From positions 1 to 56,805 of the forward strand of contig JAKVBU010000023.1 of assembly GCA_022446885.1 (NCBI GenBank): a DNA stretch of 56,805 nucleotides, given 5' to 3'. Of the stretch, positions 4,133 to 13,785 are shown piece by piece. The stretch comes from Phycisphaerales bacterium. GTDB lineage: Bacteria; Planctomycetota; Phycisphaerae; Phycisphaerales; SM1A02. Under the pieces are notes generated by a model. It was given only the letters and a program-made list of their open reading frames with translations, searched no databases and was not told the origin of the DNA. Each line of letters begins with the position of its first letter. The first letter of the stretch is position 1. The translations under genes and the position numbers were made by a program.

Positions 4133-7100
4133 TCAATCCAACCGCCCGGAATCCCCTTGTTCTATCGCATCCAGCCGGCGCTGATACGCATCCGCTTGGG
4201 CGTCATGACCAGCGCCGGGGTCGGCTTCATGCCAGTCGCCGTACATCTCGATCACCTGACCAAGCACATCCGCAATCTGCGATGAGCGCTCGCCAAACAC
4301 CTCGACATGCAGGTCGAGCGCCGAGAGCAAATAGGCCTCTGCGTCGCTGTGTCGCCCCAACTCCAGATACAACTGCCCGATCTCATAGCGTGAGCGGGCC
4401 ACCTCGCCATGGCCCGATCCATGCTGCCCCTCCCACGTCTTGAGCGCATCCAGACTGACCTCCAAGGCCTCTTCCAAGCGCCCCTGCGCACGCATTGCGT
4501 GCGCGATACCCACCAACAGCCACCAATTGGTCTTGGCCAACTGCCCCGGGTCGCCACCAAGCACCTCGGGATACGTCTCCAAGCACGCTTCGAACAGCGC
4601 GATCGCCTCATCATGCTTGCCCAGATCAACAAGCCCCTGCCCAAGACTGGCACGAACACCATTGATGGTGAATATCGACACCTCGGCGTTTCCCAGGCCT
4701 GCTTCAAGGGCCCCCTGCAAAAGAGGCACCGCCTCATCAATGAACCCCTGACCTCGCAGCGCCTCGCCATACTGCCGCAGAGACCAGATAGTCAGATCGT
4801 CATCCTCCCCCAACCGACGCCCTGCGCGGCTGGCAGCCAGATAGGCCCATCTGGCCCCGGCGAAGTCACCAGCATCTGTCAACTCTTTGGCCAACGCCAC
4901 CCGCGATTGCACCAGACGCCGAACCTCATTGCGTGTGATCCGTGCCATCGGCCCGGACAGCGCCTTAAGCGTCTTGCCCAGCTGCGCCGTCTTGCCCTCG
5001 TCAAGATGCACATTGTCGAGTGCGTGCATGGTTGAATCCAGACGGTGCATGAGGGCCGACAGCCCAGCGTCGGCACTGGCCGACGCCCTCGATCGAGCAG
5101 CACCCATGCGTCTTCCGCGGCTGCTCTGTCCATCCACCGAATACCCATTGGAATCACCTGACGACCCGATCAGGAATGCAGTCTGCCCCAACGGACGGCT
5201 GTCCCACACTCGAAGCGTGCCGTCCTGACCGACCGTTGCCAACTGACTCCCATCAGGGCTGAACGCCATGCCGTTGACGTCACGAGCGTGCCCGATCAAG
5301 TGCCCGACCGACTCGCCGGACTCGATGTCCCACAACTGCAGATCACCTGACTCGCCTCCGGTGGCCAGCCGACGGCCGCAGCGACTGAACGCAACTGAAG
5401 CCACACCCTCTTGATCGGCCTGCATGGCCAGCAGCACATCCCCCGTCTCGACACGCCAGAGAATGCACACACCCGACTCGTCGCAGGATGCCAGCACCCT
5501 GCCGTCGGCCCCCATGGCCATGGCAGTGACATCTTTTTCATGGCCGATCCACTGCGATTCATGGGCCCCCGTTGCCACGTTCCACCGATCGACCGACTCA
5601 TTCTTGCCGCAGGTAAAGACATGCTCACCATCGGCTGAAAACTCGAGCCCGTAGACATACTTGCCGTGGGCGTCCATCAACTGAATCTGCCGCATCGAAT
5701 CAACATCCCAGATGTTGAGACTGCCATCTGCATCTGCCGATGCCAATAGCCGCCCATCGTGGCTGAAGCCCACCGCAGTCACTCGATCATCGTGCAGCCC
5801 CAACTCACCCACCTGTTCACCAGTCGCTGAGTCCCACAACAGCACGTTGTTCATGCCGGTGCCGGCAGCAATGAGACCACCCTTTGGACTGATCGCCATG
5901 CACTTGAGGTACTTCTTTGCCCCCTCAATGACGGCCAACGATCGGCCCGTGGCGGCATCCCAGATCCGAATCGTCTTGTCATTGCCGGCTGTGGCAATAC
6001 GCTTGCCATCTGGGAAGAAGGCCACATCATTGATCCAGAGACGGTGCCCCTTGCAAATCAGACTCTCGCTCGTGAGGCCACTGCCCCACACCTGAATCTC
6101 CGGCTGGGTACTGGTTGAAATGACCTCTGTTCCCCGCCGTGGAACCGCAAGATCTTTCGCCCGTCCACCACGTCCATGCACCCGAGCCAACTCACGGCCC
6201 GAGAGCAGATCCCAGTTTCGAATGACCCCATCAGCGCCCGCGCTGTAGAGCTTGTTCCCATCTGCACCGAACGCAACGCCTGTCACAGCCCCCTCCACAG
6301 CCAGCGATGCCTTCATCTCACCAGTTCGACTGTTCCAAACCGAAATGGGCCCCTCGCTTGCGCCTACTGCGACCAACGCTCCGTCGGGACTGAGCGCAAC
6401 ACACTCAGCCCATGCCCCGCTGTCACCTCCAGCAGCCAGCGGTTCCAAGGATGAAAGGTCCCACGTCGCCCACAACTGCCCTACCCCACCAGCAGCCAAG
6501 ACGCCTCCCGATGGGCTCACTGCAATCGAGTTCAACTCACCGTGGGGCCAGGCGAACGTGTGCTCCACATCGCCAGCATCGGGATCGAGGATCTGAAGCG
6601 TGTTCTCATCTCCAACGGCGATCAACCGACGGCCATCGGGATGAAAGGCGATGGCGCTGATCCGCGAAGCACTCACTTGCACCTGGGCCACCCGCTCGCC
6701 AGTAACAGCATCGAACACATGGATTGTCTCCCCGCCAGCCGCTACCAGCCCCCCGTCAGGAGACACTGCAATCGAACGCCCCTTGGCAAGTTTCTCTGCA
6801 ATCTCCCAGCGAATCTCCCCTGTGCCCAGATCCCAGATCCGCACCATGCCACCATGACAGATCGAAGCCAATACCTCGCCAGCATCGTCAACATCGAGTT
6901 GCGAGACATTGGCTTCGTGCCCGCTGAGCGACAGGCGTGACTCATCCGACCTGGCAGCAAGAAACCGCCACTCAAATGGCATCTGCTCGGCAGGCTGATC
7001 AAACATCAACCTGGCCGCTTCCAGCCGTCGCTGCGCCTCCCAAGGGTCGAGTGCCCGGGTTGCGCCCAAGGCCGCATGTAGATTGCCGTAATACCCCTGC

Positions 7101-8314
7101 CGTCTGGCAAGATCTCGTTGCTCGAGCGCCTCCTTGGCCGACCTGTCGGCCTGCGCCTTTGCATCGGTTGCTGCATCACGCTGCTGCTGGGCCTCCGCCG
7201 TCGCCAACTCGGCCGCATCTCGTTGCTCGCCCGCTTCGATCGAGTACACGATTGATATTGATGTAGCCGCGACCAATGACGCCGCGACGACCACAGTGGC
7301 GATGGCCGCGGCCTTGTTCTTTCGTACAAGCCGGCGCAACTGCTCGAGCCGAGTCGGTGGCCGTGCCAGAATCGGCTCGTCGGACAGAAACCGCCGGACA
7401 TCTTCCGAGAGTTCAGCGACCGATTGATAGCGTTGGCTTCGGTCCTTTTCGAGCGCCTTGAGGCAGATCGTCTCCAGATCGCCGCGGAGCGTCGCGTTGA
7501 TCTCGCTGAGCCGAGCGGGCTGCGTCTCCCTGATGAGTTCGGCGGCTCGCGTGATGCTGGTGCCTGTCAAGTCATAGGGCATTTTGCCACTGAGCAACTG
7601 ATAGAGAATCACGCCCATGGCATAGACATCGCTGCGGGTGTCGAGTTCAGCCGGGTCGAGCTCGACTTGCTCCGGGCTCATGTACTGCAGTGTGCCGATG
7701 AGTTGCCCCGCTTCGGTGGCGAGTGTGGCACTGACTGCGTCGGCGTCGGTACTTCGGGCCACGCCGAAGTCGATGATTTTGGGATGGCCCTCAGCGTCTA
7801 CGAGGATGTTGCCAGGCTTGAGGTCGCGGTGAATCACACCCCGACGGTGCCCATAGGCCACGCCCTCACAGAAAGCACGAAAGAGCTCGAGCCGCTGCCG
7901 CGTGTCGAGGGACTCCTCAGAGACGTATTCGTCCAACTCTCTAGCGCCAGAGACATGCTCCATGGCAAAAAACGGACGCCCACCCGAGCCATCATCGAAG
8001 GTGCCAGCCTCATAGATCTGGGCAATTGCAGGATGTTGCAGGCGGCCAAGCGTCTGGGCCTCAAACTCAAACCGCCGCATGGCCTTTGCCGACACCACGC
8101 CGGGATTCATGATCTTGATGGCGACATCGCGGCGAGGGCTGTCCTGCTCAGCCAGCACCACCGTGCCCATGCCACCGGATCCAATCGCCTGCTTGACCCT
8201 GTAGGGGCCGATCGACGCCGGAATGGAAGCGCCCCCAGCCACAGCGGGGCCGTCTACAACCGTCGCATCCTGTGCGGGGGTGGATCGATCCGGCGGGTCT
8301 TTGTGATCAGCCAT
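4133..8314 (-). CDS. Transmembrane Ser/Thr protein kinase with 14 WD40 repeats and TPR tail
   Basis: A 1393-residue receptor kinase. The frame is open to 8599, but the ATG at 8314 gives MADHKDPPDR, matching the start of the paralogue at 1-1473. The kinase domain spans about residues 38-320: GSGGMG loop 45-50, VAIK Lys67, HRD 162-164, DFG 182-184, MSPEQ near 212. A TM segment covers about 335-357, and a short Ala/Gln-rich coiled coil follows. I count 14 WD40 units after it (each with a central SPDG-like turn and a terminal W-D or equivalent), which fits two seven-bladed propellers outside the membrane. The last 300 residues contain helical TPR-like repeats (LGKHDEAIALFEACLETYP, LGRHSDAEAYL). 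This architecture is typical of planctomycetes. The kinase is cytoplasmic; the ligand of the sensor part is unknown. Confidence 0.94.
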   Translation of the reverse strand: MADHKDPPDRSTPAQDATVVDGPAVAGGASIPASIGPYRVKQAIGSGGMGTVVLAEQDSPRRDVAIKIMNPGVVSAKAMRRFEFEAQTLGRLQHPAIAQIYEAGTFDDGSGGRPFFAMEHVSGARELDEYVSEESLDTRQRLELFRAFCEGVAYGHRRGVIHRDLKPGNILVDAEGHPKIIDFGVARSTDADAVSATLATEAGQLIGTLQYMSPEQVELDPAELDTRSDVYAMGVILYQLLSGKMPYDLTGTSITRAAELIRETQPARLSEINATLRGDLETICLKALEKDRSQRYQSVAELSEDVRRFLSDEPILARPPTRLEQLRRLVRKNKAAAIATVVVAASLVAATSISIVYSIEAGEQRDAAELATAEAQQQRDAATDAKAQADRSAKEALEQRDLARRQGYYGNLHAALGATRALDPWEAQRRLEAARLMFDQPAEQMPFEWRFLAARSDESRLSLSGHEANVSQLDVDDAGEVLASICHGGMVRIWDLGTGEIRWEIAEKLAKGRSIAVSPDGGLVAAGGETIHVFDAVTGERVAQVQVSASRISAIAFHPDGRRLIAVGDENTLQILDPDAGDVEHTFAWPHGELNSIAVSPSGGVLAAGGVGQLWATWDLSSLEPLAAGGDSGAWAECVALSPDGALVAVGASEGPISVWNSRTGEMKASLAVEGAVTGVAFGADGNKLYSAGADGVIRNWDLLSGRELARVHGRGGRAKDLAVPRRGTEVISTSTQPEIQVWGSGLTSESLICKGHRLWINDVAFFPDGKRIATAGNDKTIRIWDAATGRSLAVIEGAKKYLKCMAISPKGGLIAAGTGMNNVLLWDSATGEQVGELGLHDDRVTAVGFSHDGRLLASADADGSLNIWDVDSMRQIQLMDAHGKYVYGLEFSADGEHVFTCGKNESVDRWNVATGAHESQWIGHEKDVTAMAMGADGRVLASCDESGVCILWRVETGDVLLAMQADQEGVASVAFSRCGRRLATGGESGDLQLWDIESGESVGHLIGHARDVNGMAFSPDGSQLATVGQDGTLRVWDSRPLGQTAFLIGSSGDSNGYSVDGQSSRGRRMGAARSRASASADAGLSALMHRLDSTMHALDNVHLDEGKTAQLGKTLKALSGPMARITRNEVRRLVQSRVALAKELTDAGDFAGARWAYLAASRAGRRLGEDDDLTIWSLRQYGEALRGQGFIDEAVPLLQGALEAGLGNAEVSIFTINGVRASLGQGLVDLGKHDEAIALFEACLETYPEVLGGDPGQLAKTNWWLLVGIAHAMRAQGRLEEALEVSLDALKTWEGQHGSGHGEVARSRYEIGQLYLELGRHSDAEAYLLSALDLHVEVFGERSSQIADVLGQVIEMYGDWHEADPGAGHDAQADAYQRRLDAIEQGDSGRLD

Positions 8315-8658
8315 GCACTGCAAAGGGTATCGACTGACATCTATCGGGCCGCGACCTCTGCGGCCGAGGGCCACAGCAGGCCCCCCGTCAGAGGGGACTC
8401 GCATCCACCTGCAGCTTTGATGCCGCCCACGCTTGCGCCCAAGCCGAATCAACCCAGTGACAAACCCCCTTCTCGGCGGCCCAGCACAGTAGATAGGCCA
8501 GAATGCCACGTCTCGGGCAGGCCAAGGCACTGCCGAGGCAAAGTGCCCCACCGCCCCCTGTCCAAACTGATTCCAATCATCTTGACTGAGATCACGCACT
8601 CCTCATCATGGTTTCATGGGCTGCGCTGGGTGAAAGCGCCGCCGAGTAGAGGATCAGG
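8315..8658. other. Divergent intergenic region upstream of WD40 kinase, nothing recognised
   Basis: A 344-bp gap between the start of the WD40 kinase (minus) and the mini-dockerin ORF (plus). The frame of the kinase stays open through most of it (to 8599), but that stretch has no domain features and is absent from the paralogous kinase. Promoters for both directions are expected. No hairpin terminator or RNA gene was seen. Confidence 0.45.
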
Positions 8659-8808
8659 ATGCGTTCAACATCACCTATTGCTGCGCTGACTGCCGCTGCG
8701 CTGTCATCTGTCACCCTGGCTGCTACATGGACCGTCGATGATGACGGCGGTGTGGACGTGGGCGACCTGCTCGAAGTGATTGCCAACTGGGGGCTGTGCG
8801 ACAGTTGA
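8659..8808 (+). CDS. 49-residue secreted mini-dockerin protein (possible internal-deletion remnant)
   Basis: A short ORF with its own ribosome binding site (GAGG, 6 nt before the ATG). Residues 1-21 form a signal peptide (MRSTSPIAALTAAALSSVTL, cleavage after LAA). The next residues, ATWTVDDDG, match the mature N-terminus of beta-helix surface proteins of this lineage. Directly fused to them is the second half of a dockerin repeat (GGVDVGDLLEVIANWGLCDS). The middle of the protein appears to be missing with the frame kept, as if an ancestral beta-helix protein had lost its body. It could be a decaying remnant or a functional small exported peptide. The next gene begins 64 nt downstream and may be co-transcribed. 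The reading is direct; its status as a gene is uncertain. Confidence 0.6.
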   Translation: MRSTSPIAALTAAALSSVTLAATWTVDDDGGVDVGDLLEVIANWGLCDS

Positions 8809-8872
8809 TCTGCGGCCGGTTCGCGATGGCCCCGCAAGACCCTTTGTCCGATCCACACAAAGGGGAACACCC

Positions 8873-9250
8873 ATGACGTGCGTGGGCCGAGTTGATCTCG
8901 ACTACAACGAATTCACTCTGGACGAGCCTTGGGGCAGCCAGCTCGCTGCCATCTACAACCTCATCCATGGCGCGGCGACCTCTGGCCTGATCGACGAAGA
9001 ACTGCCCTACGATCAGGCGCACGCCGACGCCCCATTCAGCATGCTGGGGCAGACTTGGCTCGAGCATCTTCAGGACTGCAACGTCAATCTGGAAGAGGTT
9101 GACACTGACGATGGCCCATCACATTGCCAGCGGCTGGTCTACATCCATGTTGACAGCGATGCGGATGGCGAAGCACTCACCGCCGCCCTGGAGTCTCAAC
9201 GTGAGGCACTCGAAGCAGCCCTCTTGGAACTTGCAGGCGAGCCAAAATAG
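8873..9250 (+). CDS. Hypothetical cytoplasmic protein, 125 residues
   Basis: The ATG at 8873 was chosen because AAAGGGGA lies 5-8 nt upstream; a longer frame reaches back to 8780 but overlaps the preceding mini-dockerin stop. The protein is acidic, with no signal peptide or TM segment. It has a regular alternation of helix and strand (LVYIHVDSDADGEALTAALESQREALEAALLELAG at the end, shown here only in outline). I do not recognise the family. It follows the 49-residue secreted ORF on the same strand and converges with the aminotransferase of the next operon, with 76 nt between the ends. Confidence 0.7.
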   Translation: MTCVGRVDLDYNEFTLDEPWGSQLAAIYNLIHGAATSGLIDEELPYDQAHADAPFSMLGQTWLEHLQDCNVNLEEVDTDDGPSHCQRLVYIHVDSDADGEALTAALESQREALEAALLELAGEPK

Positions 9251-9326: not shown

Positions 9327-10673
9327 TCAAGGCATCGCCGAAATCGCCTCAAACCCCTCCCCACAAGCGACGATCAGGGCATCGATCTCCGCCTCGGTCA
9401 TGGGTGTACTCAACATGGCGCTGCAGGTGTTGATCATCACAAAGCCCGCATCGAAGAGATGATCCAGCAGCGCCTTGAGCCGGGCGTTCTCCTCGGGCGA
9501 CAGATAGGCCTCGCGGAAATTGCGCGGCGGGTTCTCTTTCATGTGCACCCGCAAGATGGAGCCCGCCCCGGTGACACAAGCGCGGCCGCCGGTTCGCCTG
9601 GCCGCCTCGGCAATGCCCGAGCGGGCCCGATCAGCAAGCCGATTGAGCCGCTCGCAGGCCGCCGCATCAAAATGCTCCATCGCGATGCGGCCAGCCACCA
9701 TGCTCATTGGGTTGGCCGAGAACGTGCCCGAGTGCGGGAACAGATACCGACCCGGAGGGGCTGCTGGATTCATCACATCCATCACATCTGCCCGGCCAGC
9801 CACCGCGCCGATGGGGAATCCGCCGCCGATCATCTTGCCCATCGCAGTCAAGTCTGCCTGCACGCCATAGTGCCCCTGCAAACCGCCAAGCGTGGATCGG
9901 AACGTGATCACTTCATCGAGCAGCAACAGCGCCCCATTGCGGCGCGTCCACGCATGGATCGCCTGCAAGAACGACGGCTCAACCGGATTGAGCCCCACGC
10001 GATGTGGCATGAGGTCCATCAGCACGCCGGCGACTTGATCTGCGTGTTCGTCCAGAATGGCGATCGCCCGATCGACATCGTTGAAGGGGAGAATGAGCAC
10101 ATCATTGAGCGCCGAGGCGGGTGTGCCGTAGGCCAGCGGCACCGAGTTGGGGCGATCGAGGCTTCCCCACGTGTCGGGATTGGGGGCCTGGCTCACCTCG
10201 GCATAGTCGTACCCACCGTGATACGCCCCCTCCACCTTGGCGATCATCTCTCGCCCGGTGAAGGCCCGGGCCGCCTTGATGGAAACCATCACGGCCTCCG
10301 TGCCCGAATTCATGAACCGAATGCGCTCGAAGGCCTCACTGCGCGAGCACATGTGCTCGGCATGCAGCACTTCGGCCTCGGTGGCCATCATGAACGCGGT
10401 TCCACGCTTGAGCTGTTCACCCAGCGCCTCCACCATCGGCCCATAGGCATGCCCATGAATGAGTGATGCCATGTTGTTGGAGAAGTCGATGCGGGCAACG
10501 CCATCCAGATCAGTCAGCCGACACCCCTCACCATGAGCGGCGTAAGCCGGGTGCGGTTGACGCAGCACGGTATTGCGGCTCACGCCACCAGGCATCACCT
10601 TCTGTCCGCGTTCAAAGAGCTCGCTGCTACGCGATTGCCCGCTCGAAGAGTTTGCCGCAGAGGCCATGTCCAT
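9327..10673 (-). CDS. Class III PLP-dependent aminotransferase (beta-amino acid aminotransferase candidate)
   Basis: A 448-residue fold-type I aminotransferase related to glutamate-1-semialdehyde aminomutase (GSAM). ATG 10673 is preceded by AAGG at 4 nt. Family landmarks: MPGGVSRNTV near 28-36, NSGTEAV near 122-128 (PLP phosphate), AYHGGYDY near 150-157, LLDEV with Asp253 (PLP ring nitrogen), and the PLP lysine K280 in AMGKMIGGGFPIGA, followed by SGTFSANP. The VSRNTV...NNMASLIHGHA N-terminus fits catabolic GSAM-like aminotransferases, including those acting on beta-amino acids, better than true HemL. It is the last gene of an operon, 8 nt after the CoA-transferase B stop. With a KamA-type aminomutase and a beta-ketoacid CoA-transferase upstream, I infer that it removes the beta-amino group made by KamA. 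The fold is certain; the substrate is inference. Confidence 0.88.
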   Translation of the reverse strand: MDMASAANSSSGQSRSSELFERGQKVMPGGVSRNTVLRQPHPAYAAHGEGCRLTDLDGVARIDFSNNMASLIHGHAYGPMVEALGEQLKRGTAFMMATEAEVLHAEHMCSRSEAFERIRFMNSGTEAVMVSIKAARAFTGREMIAKVEGAYHGGYDYAEVSQAPNPDTWGSLDRPNSVPLAYGTPASALNDVLILPFNDVDRAIAILDEHADQVAGVLMDLMPHRVGLNPVEPSFLQAIHAWTRRNGALLLLDEVITFRSTLGGLQGHYGVQADLTAMGKMIGGGFPIGAVAGRADVMDVMNPAAPPGRYLFPHSGTFSANPMSMVAGRIAMEHFDAAACERLNRLADRARSGIAEAARRTGGRACVTGAGSILRVHMKENPPRNFREAYLSPEENARLKALLDHLFDAGFVMINTCSAMLSTPMTEAEIDALIVACGEGFEAISAMP

Positions 10674-10681
10674 CACACCTT

Positions 10682-11338
10682 TCAGTTGCCCGGAGAAAGC
10701 AGCGGGGCCCCGGTTCGCTGGGCAACCGTCTCAAAGTCCACACCCGGCGCGAGTTCGACGACCTGAAACCCATGGCCTGCAACGTCAATGACGGCAAGAT
10801 CGGTGTAGATGCGATCAACCACACCCTTGCCAGTCAGCGGGAAGGTGCACGACTCGACCAGTTTTGGCGCACCCGCCTTGGTGCAGTGCTGCGTGATCAC
10901 GAAGACCTGTTTGACGCCCGCGACAAGATCCATCGCGCCGCCGACGCCGGGAATCGCATCCGGCGCTCCGGTGGACCAGTTGGCCAGATCGCCAGACTGC
11001 GACACCTGCATGGCGCCCAGCACGCTGAGGTCCAAGTGCCCACCGCGAATCATGGCAAAACTGTCGGCATGGTGAAAGAAGGCCGCGCCGTCAATCGCCG
11101 TCACATACTTCTTGCCGGCGTTGATGAGTTCCGGGTCTTCATCACTGGCCGCAGGCGCGGGCCCCATACCCAGCAGGCCATTTTCGGTGTGGTAGATGAA
11201 GGTTCGCCCCTCGGGCACGCAGTTGGCGATGAGCTCGGGAATGCCGATGCCCAGATTGACGCACGAACCGTCGGCGATGTCCAGCGCAAGACGCTCGGCC
11301 ATCTGCTGCCGGGACCACCCTTGTTGACCAGTTGTCAT
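10682..11338 (-). CDS. scoB: 3-oxoacid CoA-transferase, subunit B
   Basis: Beta subunit (218 residues) of a family I CoA-transferase (SCOT, AtoDA or PcaIJ type), which moves CoA from an acyl-CoA such as succinyl-CoA to a 3-keto acid. The catalytic glutamate is Glu52 in the motif HTENGLLG, and GIGIPELIA (about 30-38) is the usual N-terminal glycine motif. The frame reaches back to 11347, but ATG 11338 forms the classic ATGA overlap with the stop of subunit A (11335-11337), so I chose that start. Subunit A lies immediately upstream and the aminotransferase immediately downstream, so the substrate is probably a beta-keto acid made in the same operon. The exact acid (acetoacetate, 3-oxoadipate or another) cannot be told from the sequence; the gene symbol names the family. 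Confidence 0.92.
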   Translation of the reverse strand: MTTGQQGWSRQQMAERLALDIADGSCVNLGIGIPELIANCVPEGRTFIYHTENGLLGMGPAPAASDEDPELINAGKKYVTAIDGAAFFHHADSFAMIRGGHLDLSVLGAMQVSQSGDLANWSTGAPDAIPGVGGAMDLVAGVKQVFVITQHCTKAGAPKLVESCTFPLTGKGVVDRIYTDLAVIDVAGHGFQVVELAPGVDFETVAQRTGAPLLSPGN

Positions 11339-12045
11339 GGGTAGCACGCCCCTGCTGCAATGAGCTGCGATTCCACCAGCGGCTGGGGCACTTCGACCAC
11401 ACGGTCTACAAAGATGCTTGGCGTAACAACAACTTCCGGATCGATCTGCCCGGCCTCAACCACACGTTCTGCCTGCGCGATGGTGGTTCTACCGGCCATG
11501 GCCATGACTGGGCCGAAGTTGCGGGCCGTCTTGTTGTAGAGCAGGTTTCCCATGGTGTCTGCCGCGCTGGCCTTGATCAAAGCGACATCTGCCCTGAGGC
11601 CGAACTCCAGCACGTACTCACGGCCGTCGAGCACTCGCGTCTCCTTGCCTTCGCCCAGCGGCGTGCCCACTGCGGCAGGTGTGTAGAAGGCGGGGACACC
11701 TGCCCCCCCGGCGCGAATGCGCTCAGCCAAGGTGCCCTGCGGCACAAGTTCCAACTCGGTGAACCCCTCGCGATAGAGCTCGGGAAACACCCGAGAATTC
11801 GCCGTCTTGGGGAATGAGCAGATGACCTTGGTCACCCGCCGAGCCTTGAGGAGTGCTGCCAGCCCCACTTCGCCCGAGCCGGTGTTGTTGCTGATGACCG
11901 TGAGGTCTTTTGCGCCCTGATCGATGAGCGCATGGATCAACTCGATCGGGCTGCCGGCCTCACCGAAGCCGCCGATCATGATGCTCGAGCCGTCGGCGAT
12001 GTCGGCCACGGCCTCAGCGGCGCTGGCCAGACGCTTGTCGATCAT
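11335..12045 (-). CDS. scoA: 3-oxoacid CoA-transferase, subunit A
   Basis: Alpha subunit (236 residues) of the same family I CoA-transferase. The N-terminal CoA-binding motif GGFGEAGSP (about 25-33) and the later LVPQGTLAERIRAGGAGVPAFYTPA block are diagnostic for the SCOT/AtoD/PcaI alpha subunit. The ATG at 12045 overlaps the TGA of the upstream kamA-like gene (ATGA), and its own TGA overlaps the ATG of subunit B in the same way. This is strong evidence for translational coupling and for equal amounts of the two subunits. It works with subunit B as a hetero-oligomer in the cytoplasm. The function of the pair is clear; the substrate is to be judged from the operon. Confidence 0.93.
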   Translation of the reverse strand: MIDKRLASAAEAVADIADGSSIMIGGFGEAGSPIELIHALIDQGAKDLTVISNNTGSGEVGLAALLKARRVTKVICSFPKTANSRVFPELYREGFTELELVPQGTLAERIRAGGAGVPAFYTPAAVGTPLGEGKETRVLDGREYVLEFGLRADVALIKASAADTMGNLLYNKTARNFGPVMAMAGRTTIAQAERVVEAGQIDPEVVVTPSIFVDRVVEVPQPLVESQLIAAGACYP

Positions 12046-13517
12046 TGGCAGCCGGTTCGGGGCAGAGAATTGGCCAGCGTTGTTGGCGCCTGGCCGGTTT
12101 CCGTGACGCGCTTGTAGTCAAACAGACCGGCCTCATCGAAGAGCACCCGATCTTCGTAATCATCGAACCACACGGCATCGGGGTTGCGGCCCACGATGCA
12201 CACCTTGCCCCGGTCGGGAGCATCAAGCGCATTGCGGAGCAGTTTGAAGATGACAACGCCGTTTTCGCTACCGGGCAGGCCGGGGATGGGCTCATTCGTC
12301 ACGGCATTGACTTCGGTCTTGCCCTTGTAGTGGGTGATGGAGAGACGAGCGTGATTCTCAATGCCACTCAAGCCCTTCTGTGAGTTATTGAGCGTCTGCC
12401 AGGCCGTCTCGATCGGGACATTGAATGCCTTGTAGGCCACGATGTCGCGCCCGCAGAAGAAGTAGTGGTTCTCGCCGCCGACTCGCTTGAACTCACGCTG
12501 CAGAATGCGAAGGGCATCCGAGTCGTCGTTGATGTCCTTGATGATCGGAGACTGGTTCTCGACCGTCAGCCAGCCACGCGACACGAGGGCACGCATGGCC
12601 CGGCCAGTTTCGGGCACCCATTGCAGGAAGCCCTTGTCGTCTTTGATGTAGTTGCCCTCGTCGTCTTTGGCGAGAATCTCATCCGGATGCTCGAAGTGGA
12701 GCATGAAGTGCAGGCCAACCTGCGGATATGTCTCGTGGAAGGCATCGAGCATGGCCATGAAGGCATCGTCGAAGCGCTGCGGATAGAAGGCCATCTCCTT
12801 GGTGCCGATCCGGATCGACTCGATGCCAGACTCGGCGAGCGCCCCCAACCAGGCCGCGATCTTGGAGTTGTTGAGCACCATGGGGTCGCCGCCTGAGAGC
12901 AGAATCTCGCGGAGCTTCTCGCGACCCGTTTCCGGGTGGCGGCCTCCGTTGTCGACCACGATCTGGTTGTGCTCGCGGATATAGGCGCAGATCTCAGGGA
13001 TCTTGGCGAGCCCCTTTTTCGCCACCGTGCCATCGTGCCGCTCGATTTCCTTGCGGGCAATGAGCTCTTCGCGGTAGCAGAAGCGACAGTGGGCCGAGCA
13101 GGTCGAAACCACGTACATCAACCCCATCTCGTACTTGTGAAGCAGCCCCTCGACCGGGGCAAAGTCCATCTGGTTGCCTGGGTCTTCAGAGCCGGTGAGG
13201 TCGTTGGTCTCATCCGGCGACGCCTTGACGATGCGCTGGATCGGCTTGCTCTTGAGGGCCAACTCGTAGTAGTGGCGGGTGATCTTGACCGGCATGCGAG
13301 ATTCAACATCGCGATCGGTTCCGCTGAGCACCTGCAGCTTGACCACTTCGTCTTCCGTGTAAAAGGACATCATGTCCTCGGGCGCCTTCTCATTGAAGAA
13401 GGGCTTAAGGCCGTTGATGATCTCACGCTGATGGCGGGTGTCCTCGACGCTGTCGAGGAAGGCCTGCTCACGCTGGGTGGGTGTGTGGCTGAGCTTGTCG
13501 GACACCTGGCGCTCCAT
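12042..13517 (-). CDS. KamA-family radical SAM amino acid 2,3-aminomutase, divergent
   Basis: A 491-residue radical SAM/PLP enzyme of the lysine 2,3-aminomutase family, which moves an alpha-amino group to the beta carbon. The [4Fe-4S] motif CSAHCRFC is at Cys140, Cys144 and Cys147, and the GGDP motif (209-212) follows. The C-terminal half is unlike classical KamA. It has an insert around DEGNYIKDDKG (286-296), and the PLP lysine is probably K398 or K400 in THYKGKTE instead of the usual PGGGGKTP context. The residues that bind the epsilon-amino group of lysine are not evident, so lysine is not a safe substrate. ATG 13517 overlaps the small membrane protein gene; an alternative GTG at 13505 has GGAG 6 nt upstream. 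It is second in the operon and its stop overlaps subunit A of the CoA-transferase. Confidence 0.87.
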   Translation of the reverse strand: MERQVSDKLSHTPTQREQAFLDSVEDTRHQREIINGLKPFFNEKAPEDMMSFYTEDEVVKLQVLSGTDRDVESRMPVKITRHYYELALKSKPIQRIVKASPDETNDLTGSEDPGNQMDFAPVEGLLHKYEMGLMYVVSTCSAHCRFCYREELIARKEIERHDGTVAKKGLAKIPEICAYIREHNQIVVDNGGRHPETGREKLREILLSGGDPMVLNNSKIAAWLGALAESGIESIRIGTKEMAFYPQRFDDAFMAMLDAFHETYPQVGLHFMLHFEHPDEILAKDDEGNYIKDDKGFLQWVPETGRAMRALVSRGWLTVENQSPIIKDINDDSDALRILQREFKRVGGENHYFFCGRDIVAYKAFNVPIETAWQTLNNSQKGLSGIENHARLSITHYKGKTEVNAVTNEPIPGLPGSENGVVIFKLLRNALDAPDRGKVCIVGRNPDAVWFDDYEDRVLFDEAGLFDYKRVTETGQAPTTLANSLPRTGCQ

Positions 13518-13785
13518 GCCCCTGACGGGCGATGCGGGACGATTGACACCCCCTCGACTGCAACGCGAATGGTACCCCCTGAGGCCCCCCTGCTCCAGCA
13601 ATTTGATGGGGCAGAAATGCCGGAGGATCGCGAAAGACCCGCTCACCCAGTGGCAACAGCAACACGGCAATGCCGGCGCCTATGCCCAGTACTGGGGCAC
13701 CCAGCCAGACGCAGGCAAGGGCGACAAGCACGGCCAGCATCACCAGCCCATCCAAGCTCCATCCGCCGGCAGTTGGGCCAGACAT
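13468..13785 (-). CDS. Small membrane protein leading the aminomutase operon
   Basis: A 105-residue ORF with an excellent ribosome binding site (AGGAGG, 7 nt before the ATG at 13785). Residues 11-48 form one long or two short hydrophobic segments (LDGLVMLAVLVALACVWLG, then a short break and LGIGAGIAVLLLPLG). A polar, Pro/Gln-rich tail of about 55 residues follows. The gene overlaps the start of the kamA-like gene by 38-50 nt in another frame, so the two are likely translationally coupled. I do not recognise a family. It may be a short inner-membrane partner of the operon, or the tail may be only a leader that couples translation. Confidence 0.6.
   Translation of the reverse strand: MSGPTAGGWSLDGLVMLAVLVALACVWLGAPVLGIGAGIAVLLLPLGERVFRDPPAFLPHQIAGAGGPQGVPFALQSRGCQSSRIARQGHGAPGVRQAQPHTHPA

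Follow-up and report, generated by a model that had tools for sequence, protein, structure and literature searches.

Which amino acid is broken down by an operon that places a KamA-type 2,3-aminomutase beside a coenzyme A (CoA) transferase and an aminotransferase? The question is raised by four genes in a stretch of 56,805 nucleotides (nt), here called the window, which is contig JAKVBU010000023.1, positions 1 to 56,805 of the forward strand, of the Phycisphaerales bacterium assembly GCA_022446885.1 (the window's own genome, G000). From sequence comparison we propose, with moderate confidence, that the operon serves to break down an alpha-amino acid carrying a carboxylate in its side chain, most likely L-2-aminoadipate derived from lysine. 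A route of the general shape beta-amino acid to beta-keto acid, which a first-pass annotation of the window had outlined, is likely from the enzyme classes encoded. The four genes are:

12042–13517, minus strand: KAM, a 2,3-aminomutase of the KamA type, radical S-adenosylmethionine (SAM) and pyridoxal phosphate (PLP) dependent, of an uncharacterised subfamily; start at ATG 13517 or GTG 13505
11335–12045, minus strand: CTA, 3-oxoacid CoA-transferase subunit A, PcaI/ScoA family
10682–11338, minus strand: CTB, 3-oxoacid CoA-transferase subunit B, PcaJ/ScoB family; a GTG start is possible at 11347
9327–10673, minus strand: AT, class III aminotransferase, beta-transaminase-like; a GTG start is possible at 10676

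KAM and CTA as well as CTA and CTB overlap by ATGA, and fewer than 10 nt separate CTB and AT, a spacing that the first-pass annotation had described correctly. Its gene list holds for these four genes and fails for a small membrane protein: the open reading frame in question (13468–13785) overlaps the start of KAM, has 0 Pfam or NCBIfam matches and no tblastn counterpart in 84 homologous loci, and was rejected as an operon member. A scan for KAM relatives over 84,980 species genomes gave 205 stretches, of which the best 80 were kept (L001–L080, each with at least 74% identity). The complete order KAM-CTA-CTB-AT on one strand is present in 70 of these 80 homologous loci, and in the remaining 10 the contig ends at most 1.5 kb from KAM. 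The co-occurrence survey thus does not show chance neighbours; the linkage of the four genes is far above chance. At one locus (L013) the CTB and AT frames are fragmented. Among 392 genomes of the phylum, KAM (at least 68% identity) is found in 23, here called KAM-positive, and distant KamA-like proteins alone (at most 36% identity) in 10 others; in view of this gap KAM forms a sharply bounded subfamily. It is spread over eight families, inside and outside the class to which the window belongs. Six loci with the operon (L024, L031, L041, L063, L076 and L080) carry the labels Alphaproteobacteria, Spartobacteria, Chthoniobacterales, Chitinophaga or Acidobacteria, and represent either mislabelled bins or real transfers. 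A second KAM copy in the own genome (L104, contig C41) was rejected as a paralogue: over 711 nt it shares 99.0% identity with G002, a sister genome, and because of this match contig C41 is probably misplaced.

KAM belongs to the KamA superfamily in the broad sense and is set apart from its known specificities. It has no Pfam match at E ≤ 0.001 and lies outside the 12 PF04055 matches of its own genome. The best KamA-type model of NCBIfam, TIGR00238, gives 94.1 bits against a cut-off of 199.2. Also not reached are the models for lysine 2,3-aminomutase (LAM; TIGR03820, 70.3 against 525.4 bits), glutamate 2,3-aminomutase (TIGR04368, 75.4 against 650 bits) and the arginine type (80.2 against 600 bits). 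By sequence, profile and AlphaFold2 fold, the top solved relative is LAM (KamA/AblA, 2a5h), with which KAM shares the radical SAM fold, the cluster cysteines in a CxxxCxxC motif, the Arg binding the substrate carboxylate and a PLP Lys, whose position was assigned by eye. The predicted structure (mean pLDDT 74.8) served for fold matching only, and statements on residues come from alignments. One of these (A1) comprised the KAM of the window, 31 of the 80 loci, L094 and four distant KamA-like proteins; four of 81 KAM translations were left out (L020, L039 and L049 with stops, L061 without a stop). The three cluster cysteines, R149, R357 and K400 are invariant in 101 of 101 loci. Because L138–L157 in part duplicate genomes of L001–L080, neither these 101 loci nor the 100 of the regulator survey given below are all independent.

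The side-chain site bears on the substrate. In an ungapped alignment, Asp293 of LAM, which binds the amine of lysine, corresponds to R357 of KAM, an Arg in all 101 loci. The stretch that we take, by eye, to match Asp330 reads Ser-Ile-Thr and holds no acidic residue; the profile alignment stops at LAM residue 321. Asp293 and Asp330 are described as the residues by which LAM binds lysine, with Lys and Asn at these places in glutamate 2,3-aminomutase (PMC3965090). Because a cationic residue replaces Asp293 as in the glutamate enzyme, KAM should bind a side-chain carboxylate. KAM thus differs from LAM in both lysine-binding Asp, in insertions and in its low score on the LAM model. It differs from glutamate 2,3-aminomutase in having Arg and Ser/Ile/Thr instead of Lys and Asn, and in falling far short of that model's cut-off. 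To our knowledge, an operon with a CoA-transferase and a transaminase has not been described for glutamate 2,3-aminomutase.

The other operon genes fit the removal of a beta-amino group and the activation of a beta-keto acid. CTA and CTB both match Pfam CoA_trans and pass the cut-offs of TIGR02429 (344.2 bits, cut-off 128.5) and TIGR02428 (294.9 bits, cut-off 243.55), respectively. The Glu of the ENG motif of CTB, presumably the catalytic one, is invariant in the 93 of 93 loci that have a match. AT matches Pfam Aminotran_3, and its best match in the PDB is the beta-transaminase 6k8h from Sphaerobacter with 383.4 bits, compared with 220.1 bits for the best glutamate-1-semialdehyde aminomutase (GSAM). 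The Arg of its GGxxR motif is found in 89 of 90 matched loci, the last locus not being covered at that position.

The genes next to the operon in many relatives would fit 3-oxoadipyl-CoA as the product. According to neighbour clustering of the 80 loci, a PcaF/PaaJ-like thiolase gene, convergent with AT, lies within 300 nt in 50 of the 63 loci that could be judged; two loci have it beyond 300 nt, 11 lack it although the contig extends there for 1300 nt or more, and the other 17 of the 80 are not judgeable. Seven adjacent thiolases that were scored reach 574.5–589.4 bits on pcaF, slightly less than the 597 bits required by that model; for each of the seven, a 3-oxoadipyl-CoA thiolase model ranks first. 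The window has no thiolase beside the operon. The first-pass annotation had placed the thiolase elsewhere; in most of the judgeable relatives, though not in the window, the gene adjoins the operon. The small frame at 8780–9250 (plus strand), convergent with AT, occupies the place that the thiolase has in many relatives.

A different arrangement is found in one genome (G057), where KAM is divergent from CTA-CTB, a thiolase and a different aminotransferase. This thiolase passes the pcaF cut-off with 648.3 bits, and the aminotransferase is of the beta-phenylalanine aminotransferase type, with 403.2 bits to the Variovorax enzyme 4ao9, its closest solved relative, and 33% identity to the AT of the window. 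That the same aminomutase is accompanied by two types of beta-transaminase and by two 3-oxoadipyl-type thiolases speaks for the pathway and not only for a single inherited set of neighbours.

If 3-oxoadipate is the intermediate, 2-aminoadipate is the expected precursor. This hypothesis was set down before we searched for piperideine-6-carboxylate/aminoadipate-semialdehyde dehydrogenase (P6CDH), the enzyme that forms 2-aminoadipate. In one genome (G149, locus L148), P6CDH directly follows AT in convergent orientation, at a distance of 222 nt; it scores 736.2 bits, above the NF050084 cut-off of 730, and its matches in the PDB include aminoadipic semialdehyde dehydrogenase. In G417, of the same genus, P6CDH follows about 1.6 kb after AT. 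Across the 392 genomes (E ≤ 1e-150), P6CDH is present in 22 of 23 KAM-positive and in 141 of 369 KAM-negative genomes (Fisher p 2.5e-8, a test that takes no account of ancestry). The own genome encodes P6CDH (745.2 bits) and, at a contig edge, a lysine 6-dehydrogenase-like piece with 58.5% identity over 234 residues to the gene of a relative. The protein of this relative matches 3ABI with 175.7 bits, a structure described as L-lysine 6-dehydrogenase (PMC10413350).

From the enzyme classes, the conserved operon, the thiolase and dehydrogenase neighbours in relatives and the substitution at the side-chain site, all seen in the sequences, we infer a substrate, an order of steps and a physiological role. 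Upstream, and encoded elsewhere, a lysine 6-dehydrogenase-like enzyme would oxidise C6 of lysine, and P6CDH would convert the resulting semialdehyde to 2-aminoadipate. KAM would then use SAM-radical and PLP chemistry to move the C2 amino group of L-2-aminoadipate to C3, so that 3-aminoadipate is formed. AT could convert 3-aminoadipate to 3-oxoadipate, CTA/CTB could form 3-oxoadipyl-CoA, and a PcaF/PaaJ-like thiolase could release acetyl-CoA and succinyl-CoA. Alternatively, CoA might be added before AT acts on the thioester. Kat, a HemL-like transaminase of lysine fermentation, is described as active only on beta-aminoacyl-CoA (PMC3149608). Because of this precedent either order is possible, and AT may use a CoA-ester substrate by analogy. 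With 2-aminoadipate as the substrate, which we regard as evenly balanced between right and wrong, KAM would be an L-2-aminoadipate 2,3-aminomutase, which would add a new activity to the radical SAM aminomutases, and through the operon the oxidative breakdown of lysine would feed into the beta-ketoadipate pathway; to this extended proposal we give about an even chance.

Several results weigh against 2-aminoadipate. An Arg at the position of Asp293 also occurs in other KamA-like proteins to which no function is assigned (L097–L100), and the sequence of the CoA-transferase does not separate 3-oxoadipate from acetoacetate. The PcaF-like thiolase of the own genome (67% identity to the query) stands in what by sight is a phenylacetate-type cluster. 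Of 31 KAM-positive genomes, 12 lack a PcaF-like thiolase at E ≤ 1e-130; the gene is present in 18 of 18 genomes within the order and in one of 13 outside it, and all 12 without it are outside. Outside the order, therefore, either another thiolase serves or the product differs. The adjacency of P6CDH is one event in one genus. Among near relatives (E ≤ 1e-100) P6CDH is found in 15 of 16 KAM-positive and 35 of 45 KAM-negative genomes, which is not significant (p 0.26), and G057 is KAM-positive yet has neither P6CDH nor a PF16653 match. PF16653, the lysine 6-dehydrogenase-like family, shows no association with KAM (11 of 16 KAM-positive, 32 of 45 KAM-negative genomes); it was discarded as an uninformative marker, and the family also includes other enzymes.

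The same gene set can be read with other substrates. Leucine, methionine, phenylalanine or a similar neutral amino acid would pass through its beta-amino acid and beta-keto acid to a CoA ester, which is cleaved to acetyl-CoA and a shortened acyl-CoA; an old proposal of a leucine 2,3-aminomutase is said to describe this type of route. We consider it unlikely, given the invariant Arg at the side-chain site of KAM, a neighbouring thiolase nearest to 3-oxoadipyl-CoA thiolases and a P6CDH association that would stay unexplained, although the closest solved relatives of AT use neutral or aromatic beta-amino acids, such as the 6k8h enzyme, which is described as acting on beta-leucine, beta-phenylalanine and others (PMC10589169). 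L-Glutamate would lead through beta-glutamate and 3-oxoglutarate to 3-oxoglutaryl-CoA and then to malonyl-CoA and acetyl-CoA, or 3-oxoglutarate would be decarboxylated to acetoacetate, followed by the chemistry of succinyl-CoA:3-oxoacid CoA-transferase. R357 suits this substrate as it suits any with a side-chain carboxylate; however, glutamate has simpler breakdown routes, KAM stays far below the cut-off of the glutamate 2,3-aminomutase model, and neither the PcaF-like thiolase nor the link to P6CDH would be explained. Even with a glutamate 2,3-aminomutase known among the relatives of KamA (PMC3965090), we regard glutamate as rather improbable.

For L-lysine itself, the intermediates would be beta-lysine, 3-oxo-6-aminohexanoate and its CoA ester, with acetyl-CoA and 4-aminobutyryl-CoA as products. 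The nearest solved relative of KAM is indeed a lysine 2,3-aminomutase, and the lysine fermentation of Candidatus Cloacamonas, in which Kat is a 3-aminobutyryl-CoA aminotransferase, combines a KamA-type aminomutase, the CoA-transferase AtoA/AtoD, a HemL-like class III aminotransferase and a thiolase (PMC3149608). With both lysine-binding Asp lost, a LAM-model score of 70.3 bits against a cut-off of 525.4 and a PcaF-like thiolase left unexplained, lysine is nevertheless very unlikely. The likeness to Kat is drawn from its published description. Lysine fermentation needs KamDE, Kdd and Kce and passes through C4 intermediates, in contrast to the compact operon of the window, whose relatives have another type of thiolase. 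KamD (PF09043) was found in 0 of 61 genomes, with no control genome positive either; Kdd and Kce were outside the search. Least credible of all is that AT is the GSAM of the cell and stands in the operon by accident. The first-pass annotation had called it a GSAM-like class III aminotransferase, and it is the best match of its genome to the hemL model (about 308.4–308.7 bits), whose cut-off of 527.3 none of the genes there reaches. The protein groups with the beta-transaminases and keeps its position in the operon across the loci. A search for glutamyl-tRNA reductase (PF05201) gave no match in the own genome and none in 15 of 16 KAM-positive relatives, while 10 of 14 control genomes were positive. 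Because of this and of the hemL score below cut-off, AT is unlikely to make aminolevulinate, and its assignment as GSAM was rejected. Of the substrates named in the first-pass annotation (leucine, glutamate, lysine or an aromatic amino acid), the Asp-to-Arg change counts against lysine and, to a lesser degree, against neutral side chains. The PcaF-like thiolase, together with aminoadipate-semialdehyde dehydrogenase, favours 2-aminoadipate, which that list omitted.

The route through 2-aminoadipate would resemble the lower beta-ketoadipate pathway (PcaIJ, PcaF) and PaaJ: CTA and CTB belong to the PcaIJ/ScoAB families, and 3-oxoadipyl-CoA thiolase models rank first for the neighbouring thiolases. 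In contrast to the beta-ketoadipate pathway, which is fed from aromatics, the operon would be fed from an amino acid by a 2,3-aminomutase. We found no description of such a route in the open-licence literature searched, and one paper states that, for converting lysine to adipate, no enzyme is known that deaminates beta-lysine, lysine or 2-aminoadipate (PMC7241714). If the proposal is true, lysine breakdown in these organisms would avoid 2-oxoadipate and glutaryl-CoA through a shift of the amino group, and its users would be Planctomycetota known mainly from metagenomes. The aminomutase would have a new specificity, and the route would provide a natural enzymatic bridge between lysine and 3-oxoadipate, which is of interest for adipate production. 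The tightly conserved KamA subfamily, which reaches the cut-off of no NCBIfam model, would also gain a function. With any other substrate, the operon still makes a catabolic route for a beta-amino acid directly testable.

Some further observations concern KAM relatives and the surroundings of the operon. L097, L098 and L100, on the one hand, and L099, on the other, represent two more KamA-like subfamilies of about 440–500 residues with 25–28% identity to KAM, and no KAM-type operon was seen within these short loci. In a KAM-negative genome (G010; L172:6739–11263), P6CDH stands beside two genes that by sight resemble lysine-ketoglutarate reductase and saccharopine dehydrogenase; this gene set indicates that KAM-negative relatives form aminoadipate too, with different upstream steps. 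A second CTB-like gene (51–52% identity to CTB) lies divergently beside P6CDH in five of seven inspected KAM-positive genomes (L166, L167, L168, L176 and L177, from G000, G036, G020, G004 and G001, respectively) and in 0 of 5 KAM-negative ones; no CTA-like gene was found in these stretches.

A scan for promoters and terminators yielded no more than shuffled sequences, and no RpiR-like regulator adjoins the operon of the window. Among the loci L001–L080, 35 encode such a regulator, recognised by sight, divergently on the upstream side of KAM, as do eight of L138–L157 (for example L141:9795–10616, plus strand); its ligand might point to the inducer of the operon. Downstream of the operon, the window carries long frames on the minus strand that by sight resemble serine/threonine kinases (4133–8599 and 1–1473), the former with WD40-type repeats.

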